Assembly: GCA_021646465.1 (NCBI GenBank)
Contig: SOET01000004.1
Span: forward strand, 62,001 to 126,000
Source: Candidatus Kuenenia hertensis
GTDB taxonomy: Bacteria; Planctomycetota; Brocadiia; Brocadiales; Brocadiaceae
Direction of reading: 5' to 3'
Length of the DNA: 64,000 bases
Shown: piece by piece, positions 23,853-27,520 of the stretch
Layout of the letters: each line of letters begins with the position of its first letter
How positions within the stretch are numbered: position 1 is the stretch's first letter
Program-made: the position numbers and the translations under genes
Notes under the pieces: model-generated
Database searches by the model: none
Told to the model about the DNA's origin: nothing
Seen by the model: the letters and a program-made list of their open reading frames with translations, nothing else

Positions 23853-24422
23853 ATGAAAGAAAAGGGATTTGTTGAACTTTTATTTGGAAGTTTTTTTAGA
23901 TGGTGGTGGGCCTTTATCACTGGCTTTGCCTCTTTGCTTAGTTGGGTATTTGTACCAGTTGGCATCACTCTTAGCAGAATTGCGGTTACTATATTGACTG
24001 TCGTTAGCCTTACCTTGTTGTTCCTTTGTGTTTCAACACTCTATCAAAGTTGGCTGCTTTATAGAAATCGTTTGACTGCTCCTGCTATCGTAGGCTATCA
24101 GAGATGTGATAGTTATGGAGGAGAGTTCATATTTCTTATCGATGGTTTCCCATCAATTGCTCAAGGTAGAGTTGCTGAACTTAAACGATTTGTTGGTGGT
24201 GTTGAAGTGAGTTTTGCATTGGTTGAGTTGATGGAACGTAATTCAAAAGGTCAATTTCAAGCTAGACCTATATGGATATCTCCTATACATCTTCGTGACC
24301 TTAGAATGAATCAGTTTGTTTATACCGACATTATTGTAGATCCTTTGGTACAATTACGTACAATTTCTGCCTCAAAGGATAATCTGATAGAACAAGGAGT
24401 TTATAATGAACAAAGATCCTAA
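23853..24422 (+). CDS. Two-segment membrane protein paired with a TIR gene
   Basis: The 189-residue protein has two hydrophobic segments (about residues 15-35 and 40-66), the first Trp-rich (FFRWWWAFITGFASLLSWVF). It continues with a cytoplasmic, beta-rich domain of about 110 residues, including GGEFIFLIDGFPSIAQGRV and RPIWISPIHLRDLR. I do not recognise a family. Its last 17 bases overlap the start of the TIR gene, whose AAGGAG site lies inside it, so the two are translationally coupled. By context it may anchor or regulate the TIR protein. No clear ribosome site precedes its own ATG. Nothing of note is visible in the gap 23566-23852. Confidence 0.65.
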   Translation: MKEKGFVELLFGSFFRWWWAFITGFASLLSWVFVPVGITLSRIAVTILTVVSLTLLFLCVSTLYQSWLLYRNRLTAPAIVGYQRCDSYGGEFIFLIDGFPSIAQGRVAELKRFVGGVEVSFALVELMERNSKGQFQARPIWISPIHLRDLRMNQFVYTDIIVDPLVQLRTISASKDNLIEQGVYNEQRS

Positions 24423-25377
24423 GGTTTTTTTAAGTTATTCGCATTCAGATAAGGAATTTGCAGTTAAACTCGCAGAAGACCTGCGTAAACAAGGGATTGA
24501 TATCTGGATAGATAAATGGGAAATACAACCAGGAGACTCTATAATACAAAAAATATTTTTACAAGGACTTGCCGACACTGATTTTTTCTTAATTCTTTTA
24601 TCCTCCGAGAGTATACGTTCGAAGTGGGTAGCCGAGGAATTAAACGCTGCAATAGTAAAAAAAATGGAAGGTATAACACGTATTATACCAGTAATCAAAG
24701 AACGTTGTGATGTTCCTTTGCCTCTTCGTACCCTTTTATGGGTAGATCTATCTTCAGATTATGATGAGGGCATTCGCACGCTTGTAAAAACAATGCATGG
24801 GGTATCAGAAAAACCGCCTCTTGGTAAAATTCCAGAGTACGTATCAGCTATAAAACAAAGTGTTGGTGGCCTTTCAAAAAATGCTTCAACAGTTGGCGCA
24901 TTATTACTAACGAGACCCGATGACCAAACGGGATTTGAGAGGAGTTACTCATCAAAAGAACTTCAATCACTTGTGCCTTTTCTTAAGCCGGATGAACTAA
25001 ATGACGTAGTAGATGAACTTGAAAGTTATGGACTTGTTAAGACACATAAGTTTTTAGGAACTGCCCCTTACAATTTTGGCCAAGTAACACCAACATATGC
25101 TCTTTTTTTACATTTTAAAAATGAGGGCATTGACTATGATCCGATGGAAGATGTTAAGGCTGTTGCTGCTGCAATAACAGCAAAAGGTCAACTTAATGGA
25201 GATGAGTTGCGTTCTATTGTCCAGTTACCACCAGTTAGGTTAAACCGTGCTGTTTCTTATCTTGAAGATTATGGATATGTCCAAGTTTATAAATACATTG
25301 GAACAGCCCCTTACAACTTTGGGCGGCTTAAAGCAACGCGACATACACGGCAATTTGTCCAAGAGCATGGTAAATAA
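24406..25377 (+). CDS. TIR-domain protein with tandem C-terminal winged-helix-like repeats
   Basis: The 323-residue protein begins with a bacterial TIR domain (residues 5-135): VFLSYSHSDKEFAVKLAEDL, then IDIWIDKWEIQPGDSI, and LLSSESIRSKWVAEEL, in which Glu78 occupies the position of the catalytic Glu of NAD-cleaving TIRs. Two similar helical modules follow (about 170-245 and 250-323), each ending GTAPYNFG (LGTAPYNFGQVTPT and IGTAPYNFGRLKATRH), which look like winged-helix repeats for ligand or nucleic-acid binding. Bacterial TIR proteins often act as NAD-depleting effectors in phage defence. Overlap with the membrane protein gene makes a two-gene unit. No known sensor partner, such as a Thoeris or CBASS gene, is adjacent. 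Confidence 0.8.
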   Translation: MNKDPKVFLSYSHSDKEFAVKLAEDLRKQGIDIWIDKWEIQPGDSIIQKIFLQGLADTDFFLILLSSESIRSKWVAEELNAAIVKKMEGITRIIPVIKERCDVPLPLRTLLWVDLSSDYDEGIRTLVKTMHGVSEKPPLGKIPEYVSAIKQSVGGLSKNASTVGALLLTRPDDQTGFERSYSSKELQSLVPFLKPDELNDVVDELESYGLVKTHKFLGTAPYNFGQVTPTYALFLHFKNEGIDYDPMEDVKAVAAAITAKGQLNGDELRSIVQLPPVRLNRAVSYLEDYGYVQVYKYIGTAPYNFGRLKATRHTRQFVQEHGK

Positions 25378-25709: not shown

Positions 25710-26348
25710 ATGACAAACGAGGTGTCCCAGCGATTAGAATCTGCCAGAAAAGAGTTGCTGGATTTTACAATGCGCAATCCACTGTTAAATCAGCGTAAAC
25801 GTGCCAAGCAGGTAAAGATTTCAGATGAACTTTCCAATGAGATATATCGTATATTAGTGACACAGGGGAAGGAAATGAGTTTTGAGGCATTGCCGGAATC
25901 AAAACTTGCGCAGGCAGTAGAATCTGAGGCAAACGATGAAATACAAGGTGAAAATGTCGATTTGGCAGACTTACTTGCACAGCCGGAAGAAAATCTTACA
26001 GAGGGCACACTGGCGTCTCGCCATACAGATAGAAAACTACAAACTATTCTCTCCTCTGAAAAACTGCAAACCAGACTACTCTCTATTCATAATGATGCCA
26101 GGACATACATAGAAGAACAGGGTGTAAATATTCTTTATTTGGCATTAGGTTTCCTCTATTGGTATGAATCAGATAGCGCCAAAGAGCCCAGGCATGCTCC
26201 CTTAATCCTTGTGCCTGTTGAATTGAAACGTATAAGCGCACAGGACAGGTTTTATCTTGTTTATTCAGGCGAAGAGATCGGGGATAACCTTTCCCTCATC
26301 GAAAAACTCAAAACAGAAGCAATATGGGGGTCACATCTTGACTATTGA
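25710..26348 (+). pseudogene. DUF4011 helicase N-terminus, truncated by a transposable element
   Basis: The 212-residue frame matches the DUF4011 domain that starts very large (over 1000 residue) superfamily-1 helicases: RKELLDFTMRNPLLNQRKRA, then VNILYLALGFLYWYESD, RHAPLILVPVEL and FYLVYSGEEIGDNLSL. These proteins, often with a Vsr or DUF3320 end, recur in defence islands. The element at 26327-27347 starts inside the codon series, so the last 7 residues come from the element and the helicase, nuclease and C-terminal domains are missing. No continuation was found beyond the element, so material was also lost. AAAAGGAG precedes the ATG. Even if expressed, this peptide would lack any ATPase. 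Confidence 0.8.
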
Positions 26349-27347
26349 CAATATTTGCAAGATATGTATAATACAAAACCATGGCAAGGCAGGCAAGAAT
26401 AGAATTTGAAGGGGCTTTTTACCATGTAATGAATCGAGGAAATCACAGAGAAAATATTTTTCTTGATACACATGATCGGGAAAAGTTTTATGAGATTGTT
26501 GGTAATATTGAAAGCCGATATGGCATTATTGTTTATGTTTTTGTATTAATGTCAAACCATTATCATATCTTATTAGAAACTCCCCATGCGAATTTATCAC
26601 GTGCAATTCAACGCCTCAATGGAGATTATGCCTTGTATTTCAGCCGCAGGCATAAACGGCCAGGACATCTGTTTCAAGGAAGATATAAGGCTATGTTGGT
26701 GGAAAAGGAAACGTATCTTTTAGAATTAAGCCGGTATATACATTTAAATCCATTCAGGGCGGGGCTCGCTCGAAATCCGGAGGAATACAAATGGAGCAGT
26801 TTACCGGCATACGCGACTGGAAAAGCACATTTCCCTTTTACCCTTCATTGGGAATGGATTGCATCAAGATTTGGTAAAAAAAAAGATAGTGCTACAGGGA
26901 AGTATTTAGAATTTATCCGGGAAGGGATACGGGACGGGAGCAACCCTGGGTTGAAAGCAGCGGGGAAGTGGATATTGGGAAGTGATGATTGGATAAAGAC
27001 AGTACTTAAGAGATGGGGCAATTTTTCATCAAGAGAGTTAAGCGGGGTAAAACCACTCAGGAAGCATATACTGGTTGAAACGTTAGAGGAACATGTTTGT
27101 AATGAATTTGAGATAAAAAGGGAAACGTTAGAAATGCCAATGTATAATAATGTTGCCAGACAGGCAATGATGTTTCTCGCGGTAAATCATGGTGGCATGA
27201 CGTTAAAAGAAGTCAGTCAAAGGTATGGAGCACGGAGTTATTATTCTGTGAGTAAAGCAGTTAGCCGTTTCCGTCAACGAGTTGCAAAAGATCATACATT
27301 ACATAAACGATTCAGGAAAATATTGTCCAATGTCCAGATGTGACCCC
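26327..27347 (+). mobile_element. RAYT-type Y1 transposase element with terminal inverted repeats
   Basis: The 1021-bp element is bounded by imperfect 30-bp inverted repeats at 26327-26356 and 27318-27347 (26 of 30 bases match). The outermost 12 bases, ggggtcacatct, are perfect. The single gene inside is the Y1 transposase at 26381. The right repeat overlaps the last codons of that gene. Insertion truncates a DUF4011 helicase. No clear target-site duplication is visible, which suits single-strand Y1 transposition. Confidence 0.8.
26381..27343 (+). CDS. REP-associated tyrosine (Y1/HUH) transposase
   Basis: The 320-residue protein matches the IS200-like Y1 family of RAYT type. The N-terminal motif MARQARIEFEGAFYHVMNRG is typical. 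The HUH metal site is NHYHILLE, and the catalytic Tyr lies in SRYIHLNPFRAG. GHLFQGRYKAMLV is a conserved family block. A C-terminal extension (about 225-315) resembles a DnaA-like helix-turn-helix (GGMTLKEVSQRYGARSYYSV). These enzymes cut single-stranded DNA at folded palindromes and are linked to the spread of REP elements. It is a candidate mover of the palindromic elements in this window. The frame is intact. No strong ribosome site is visible. Confidence 0.9.
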   Translation: MARQARIEFEGAFYHVMNRGNHRENIFLDTHDREKFYEIVGNIESRYGIIVYVFVLMSNHYHILLETPHANLSRAIQRLNGDYALYFSRRHKRPGHLFQGRYKAMLVEKETYLLELSRYIHLNPFRAGLARNPEEYKWSSLPAYATGKAHFPFTLHWEWIASRFGKKKDSATGKYLEFIREGIRDGSNPGLKAAGKWILGSDDWIKTVLKRWGNFSSRELSGVKPLRKHILVETLEEHVCNEFEIKRETLEMPMYNNVARQAMMFLAVNHGGMTLKEVSQRYGARSYYSVSKAVSRFRQRVAKDHTLHKRFRKILSNVQM

Positions 27348-27391
27348 TGTCTCCCTGTCTCCTGTCTGTTCTACATGCTTAATGAGCAGCG

Positions 27392-27494
27392 GGGGTCGCC
27401 TTTTACCATTGACATTTGATCCCATCCCTCTTGAGGAAGGACGAAGGGGTCGTTTACCATTGACAAATATGTCATTGATAAAGATTCGACCCCC
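27392..27494. repeat. Remnant ends of a second RAYT-like element
   Basis: Two near-copies of ggggtcgccttttaccattgaca (shortened in the second copy) start at 27392 and 27446. An inverted copy, tgtcattgataaagattcg followed by acccc, ends at 27494. The ends resemble but differ from those of the intact element just to the left. The second copy and the inverted copy enclose only about 49 bp, suggesting a solo pair of ends with the transposase lost. Confidence 0.45.
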
Positions 27495-27520
27495 ATCCCC
27501 CATCCCTCTCATTTATCGTA

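Follow-up and report, generated by a model that had tools for sequence, protein, structure and literature searches.

The locus described here raises the question of whether a transposase of a type generally taken to be domesticated can belong to an element that moves, and whether such a movement is what ended the helicase gene beside it. It lies in a window of 64,000 nucleotides, by which is meant the whole stretch of DNA that was analysed, from the genome of Candidatus Kuenenia hertensis (4.17 Mb in 89 contigs). The first-pass annotation, made from the letters alone, had proposed a mobile form of RAYT that had cut a DUF4011 helicase.

The element runs from 26327 to 27347 on the forward strand, 1,021 bp from one terminal inverted repeat (TIR) to the other, its limits being given by a repeat search and by the points at which homology ends in multi-copy relatives (GGGGTC...GACCCC). 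The left TIR (GGGGTCACATCTTGACTATTGACAATATTT, 26327-26356, forward strand) and the right TIR (27318-27347, reverse strand) are arms of 30 nt with 961 nt between them, they begin GGGGTCA and are 87% complementary, the repeat search returning the same 26 matches in 30 as the first-pass annotation, and the left arm fits the consensus GGGGWSAS (PMC3733652). A single ORF is carried, that of the transposase (26381-27343, forward strand, 320 aa), and its overlap with the right repeat is as had been noticed, with the final codons covered by the arm and the stop inside it. GTAG is not found at the ends of the element, so the flanking REPs of a RAYT/REPtron are lacking, and the ends fold no better than expectation (z of -1.64 and +1.29). 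A REP-like hairpin in every TIR was also considered, and was unsupported at the six ends tested.

Beyond the right end three TIR-like monomers that belong to another TIRYT-type family are clustered (27392-27496, with monomers at 27392-27414 and 27446-27465 on the forward strand and at 27470-27496 on the reverse strand). The pattern GGGGTC-N8-18-TTGACA has three matches in the window where 0.09 are expected from shuffles, and two of these three fall in the cluster. The monomers at 27446-27465 and 27470-27496 form a palindrome, the cluster folds better than most shuffles (z -2.58), and the ends of its family read GGGGTCG...TTTACCATTGACA, with the locus L109 listed alongside it. One related copy is present in the same genome (G000:C58:102672-102711), and related ends (GGGGTCGAATCTTTACCATTGACAAA) recur in the genomes G001, G002 and G021, where on two occasions they form pairs with a spacing of 570 bp.

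On its left side the element closes a DUF4011 gene of the anti-phage helicase type, of which an N-terminal stub is left (25710-26348, forward strand, 212 aa, PF13195 at E=2.1e-45), the nearest models being the anti-phage ProA and Hhe. The frame enters the left repeat at 26327 and its last six residues (GSHLDY) and stop are encoded by the arm, in line with the first-pass annotation, which had the last residues encoded by the element. When compared with a relative of 1,853 aa (G011), residues 1-186 alone are matched in the window and residues 2-187 in the whole genome, and the remaining ~1,650 codons were found neither downstream nor elsewhere in the genome. Because these codons are missing a clean insertion into an intact gene is not demonstrable, so of the proposal that the element cut the helicase it is the truncation at the left TIR that stands. 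The empty site that had been suggested as a check was looked for, together with a close DUF4011 gene, in 32 genomes (its own included) and none was found, the four other genomes that match doing so at no more than 39% identity. The element is rather to be seen as marking the 3' end of the stub than as a clean interruption of it. It is possible, if somewhat doubtful, that an unrelated deletion truncated the stub first and the element just marks the breakpoint, as the absence of ~1,650 helicase codons from the genome would allow, but the helicase similarity stops no more than about 5 codons short of the TIR's first G. The reading preferred here is that one insertion, or a rearrangement associated with it, would have left this defence gene cut off at the left TIR. 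A gene for a TIR-domain (Toll/IL-1R-like) protein lies just upstream of the stub (24406-25377), which suggests the remains of a defence locus.

The transposase has a Y1/HUH domain (Y1_Tnp, PF01797, E=1.5e-15) with the HUH motif N59-H60-Y61-H62 and with Y119 placed within RYIHLNP; no variation is seen at N59, H60, H62 or Y119, whether 23 or 42 sequences are aligned. It is followed by a C-terminal helix-turn-helix (HTH) resembling domain IV of DnaA (residues about 232-315), which is recognised by the Bac_DnaA_C profile (PF08299, E=8e-5, under its gathering cut-off) and by a fold match. Among the 23 aligned proteins, that of the window included, Y1_Tnp is matched by all and Bac_DnaA_C by 19. When the 42-sequence profile was compared with the PDB it matched DnaA chains and the REP transposase 4er8, and the AlphaFold2 model (pLDDT 91.4) matches 4er8 with E=6.4e-7 and a TM of 0.75 on the target chain, whilst for DnaA domain IV (1j1v) the TM is 0.88 on the target and the rmsd 1.6, yet E is just 0.01.

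By these features the window element is a TIRtron and its transposase a TIRYT of TnpA-Y1 subclass 2.1, not an ordinary RAYT. TIRYTs and TIRtrons are the names given by Di Nocera et al. 2013 (PMC3733652) to RAYT-like genes between inverted repeats with the motif GGGGWSAS, the term TIRYT being used again in PMC6006769. As described in the available part of the 2013 paper they share with the window element a RAYT-like tyrosine transposase, inverted repeats unrelated to GTAG REPs, the same motif, here in long TIRs (GGGGTCAC, 26/30), and the occurrence of TIRs in dimers and clusters as well, but that part gives no near-identical copies of whole elements and no flank duplications abutting the ends. 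A TIRYT of subclass 2.1 is expected to have a Y1/HUH domain with HUH motif and catalytic tyrosine and a C-terminal HTH (Bac_DnaA_C, HTH_23 or HTH_28), and the window protein has both; like it, members of the subclass combine the YIHLNP motif in their Y1 core with a C-terminal domain resembling Bac_DnaA_C (PMC6006769). In the survey by Quentin et al. 2018 (PMC6006769) intragenomic copies are distant, with a mean identity of 49% for subclass 2.1, and evidence of mobility is absent, whereas the present relatives hold copies of 97-99% identity; the accessible text of PMC8266576 likewise leaves the mobility of tnpAREP without evidence.

REPtrons (RAYTs of the group 2 and 3 TnpAREP, with 4er8 as the known structure) have the HUH/Y1 fold and inverted terminal recognition sequences in common with the window family, which differs in having no GTAG, no REP hairpin at the ends tested, an extra DnaA-like domain and multiple copies. 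The NCBIfam model for REP transposases (NF047646, REP_Tyr_transpos) gives the window protein 75 bits against a cut-off of 80, a near miss for this RAYT/REPtron model, and the usual single-copy state of a RAYT, immobile as a unit, does not describe relatives with three or four near-identical copies, although the window genome has one intact copy. IS200/IS605 elements (IS608, ISDra2) are alike in their Y1 HUH transposase and in the absence of a target-site duplication, but they have subterminal hairpins in place of terminal inverted repeats, the ends of the IS608 type being palindromes with transposition specific to one strand according to the part of PMC8266576 at hand, whereas the window family has true inverted repeats and two ends that behave alike. 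The TIRtron/TIRYT type is thus already known, if little studied, and the window element adds a member to it; the new contributions are the evidence of family mobility and the duplications abutting the ends, of which the literature searched gave no earlier report. What the first-pass annotation called a mobile form of RAYT is RAYT-like with long terminal repeats and belongs to a mobile family, its structure being one that had already been described (PMC3733652, PMC6006769, as far as their available text goes).

A homologue is present in 49 of the 59 genomes searched. Copies with 97-99% identity are found in G012 (three), G014 (three) and G041 (four), with two at 93% in G002; within the first three genomes the copies show 3-27 differences over 960-990 coding positions, pairs with L054 being left out for an indel. 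Near-identical copies have unrelated flanks and their homology stops at or a few bases from GGGGTC...GACCCC, those of G012 sharing up to about 10 further bases past the right end. That the TIRYT family is mobile is shown by the outcome of movement, in so far as genome comparison can show it, in these near-identical multi-copy units at unrelated sites with the ends GGGGTC/GACCCC, and such copies contradict the published lack of mobility evidence for these transposases (PMC6006769). In its own genome (G000) no second intact copy accompanies the window element, which has decayed relatives on C86 (276 nt, 92%) and C45 (215 nt, 86%) and end remnants on C58 (left end, 101 nt, 84%) and C16 (right end, 35 nt, 89%). 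The search for other copies with the same ends, which had been proposed as a check, was therefore positive both in the own genome and in relatives, and the repeats are not unique to the locus.

Of seven remnants in G000-G002, five (L064, L072, L073, L081, L083) retain the right-hand part, with differing 5' truncations and unrelated upstream flanks, as if there were copying from the right end or biased decay; in L064 and L073 the final bases of the right end are unaligned. The left flank ends in TA in all four copies of G041 (L057-L060) and in ATA in all three of G014 (L061-L063) whilst right flanks vary, possibly a one-sided target preference. The sequence G032:C35:93-202, next to a TIR, matches the left flank of L061 in G014, a different genus, at 100% identity, by either horizontal transfer or contamination.

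In a scan of GTDB species genomes, 80 loci were listed out of 557 confirmed, and by record titles those listed fall in Nitrospirota, Desulfobacteria, Omnitrophota, Planctomycetota, Gammaproteobacteria and others. Two of the 80 were dropped for too short a flank, and gene-flanking inverted repeats scoring at least 15, mostly [AG]GGGTCA..., are found in 54 of the remaining 78 relatives and in 117 of 2000 mismatched pairs. Matches, mostly partial, also occur in the records of 20 plasmids and 1 phage. Empty sites of 14 other insertions were looked for by joining their flanks and searching 59 genomes, and among the matches listed (the best 5 candidates per genome) none crossed the junction, a weak negative; reading frames continue across joined flanks, for 30 aa or more both before and after the join, in 35 of 102 cases against 144 of 400 random pairs, which is no excess.

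At the right end of the window element is a tandem duplication of 8 bp (27345-27367, no strand), with CCCTGTCT at 27345-27352, CCCTGTCT again at 27353-27360 and then CCTGTCT at 27361-27367 (period 8, run 10), the unit consisting of 3 nt of TIR and 5 nt of flank. Such units, made of host flank and a TIR prefix of 0-16 nt, recur outside TIRYT ends. When a tandem is required to have a period of 5-35, a run of at least 8 and at least 5 outside bases, 58 of 169 ends carry one; with the test point shifted to 23 positions along these flanks the mean count is 2.0 of 169, and other [AG]GGGTC motifs give 10 of 265. These ends come from 90 of 122 loci with a scorable TIR pair, 32 having been dropped for want of a pair scoring at least 13 with the motif; ends with less than 200 nt outside were excluded from flank tests, and five rows were removed as repeats of others (L145, same sequence as L143; L036, L040, L041 and L048, same places as L054, L066, L057 and L061). 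Both the run criterion and a 6-mer test were picked after inspecting this first set, and with the criterion unchanged a second set of 36 loci, which shares its 59 source genomes with part of the first and lost 12 loci for lack of a scorable TIR pair, gave 14 of 47 ends against 0.35. The IS110 abutting L067 (0/23) was rejected as a control since it is not independent, that element itself targeting TIRYT ends, and insertion sequences of E. coli K-12 were used instead: none of the 38 ends of 19 DDE elements is duplicated, abutting target-site duplications of at least 3 being seen in 10 of the 19 (Fisher p of 1.3e-6 for the first set and 1.6e-4 for the second).

The duplications of the first set lie at 28 left and 30 right ends, and where both ends of an element were scored (80 elements), 40 show no duplication, 28 a single one and 12 one at each end; most ends (111 of 169) are without. 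The flank contributes 3-11 nt (median 7) to the unit in the 49 exact tandems of the two sets, the criterion disfavouring very short flank parts and not long ones, and no conserved sequence was found at the inferred nick. Recent copies in single-contig genomes (L054 and L056 of G012, L062 and L063 of G014) have different duplications, each from their own flanks, so the event occurs at or after insertion. A target-site duplication, by which a DDE insertion sequence would be known, is not in evidence, a 6-mer common to left and right flank occurring in 1 of 87 elements where 1.2 are expected, which is as HUH chemistry would lead one to expect.

Judging from sequence, the window probably holds a mobile autonomous TIRtron whose HUH enzyme leaves duplications of flank and TIR prefix, and insertion or rearrangement of which left the DUF4011 gene truncated. 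A TIRtron would be an autonomous unit resembling an insertion sequence, with one TIRYT gene (for a RAYT-like Y1/HUH nuclease that cuts single strands, fused to a DnaA-domain-IV-like DNA-binding domain) bounded by GGGGTCA... repeats. The DnaA-like domain may bind the duplex TIR, and the catalytic Tyr119 would nick the GGGG-strand on the outer side of each TIR, at a distance of about 3-11 nt (median 7), so that the left and right nicks would fall on opposite strands. Synthesis from the free 3'-OH could then copy the flank and run on into the TIR, and resealing of the new end to the 5'-phosphotyrosine would give flank and TIR prefix twice, and productive events would move the whole element. More tentatively, and against our own doubts, TIRtrons in general might be HUH transposons in active movement, their two inverted ends being equivalent and nicked about 7 nt outside on the GGGG-strand and so on opposite strands, in a single-strand mode unlike that of IS608, with the duplications as nick-extend-reseal scars that form a genomic record of cut sites across phyla.

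The main rival to such a scar is slippage during host replication, in which left and right TIR pair in single-stranded DNA and the polymerase stalls at the foot of the stem and slips, the element still being a mobile TIRtron. This is rather unlikely, if far from fanciful: duplications extend 0-16 nt into the TIR, roughly the zone where a polymerase would stall at a TIR-TIR stem, and micro-homology is in slight excess, but run minus period is mostly 0-2, leaving little or no micro-homology at most junctions, the flank part is restricted to 3-11 nt, and the 38 ends without duplication in E. coli K-12, one other host, belong to elements that mostly have inverted ends. It is improbable that the duplications pre-date insertion, the transposase favouring short tandem repeats or purine-rich micro-repeats as targets. 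Flanks are indeed rich in purines and poor in T at -5 to -9 and have A/T at -1 to -3, and some cases such as L117 have three units with little TIR in each; however, the first set has 48 near-exact cases, and in 26 of them the unit holds at least 6 nt of the element's own TIR, impossible before insertion, and for this long-prefix class the idea is already contradicted.

The view of RAYTs as domesticated reportedly comes from Bertels et al. 2017. A domesticated, vertically inherited and immobile RAYT with ordinary REP-like flanking repeats is very improbable here, for although the own genome has a single intact copy and the literature, in the parts available, views RAYT/TnpAREP as domesticated and non-moving (PMC6006769, PMC8266576), relatives hold near-identical copies at different sites, the nearest intact relatives are in other families of the order (G050 at 61%, G036 at 57%) and the sister species G001 and G002 have partial remnants as their closest matches.

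TIRYT-like ends are themselves occupied by elements of the IS110 family (PF01548, PF02371; for example L216:1549-2610), with 23 places (L196-L218) in 7 of the 15 genomes searched. Their flanks have AAGRTNTGAT in 16 of 23, and TGAT stands directly before the IS end AATCATATAG in 22 of 23. This targeting of TIRYT TIRs looks analogous to that of ISPpu9, which is reported in REPs in the accessible text of PMC8450116.

Transposases of the RAYT type are generally regarded as domesticated, and a branch of their family in which the whole unit moves would let domestication be studied against a living counterpart, in a system that is tractable for tests. If it is the enzyme that makes the end duplications, genome data alone may reveal the cut sites of an uncharacterised HUH transposase whose ends are inverted.
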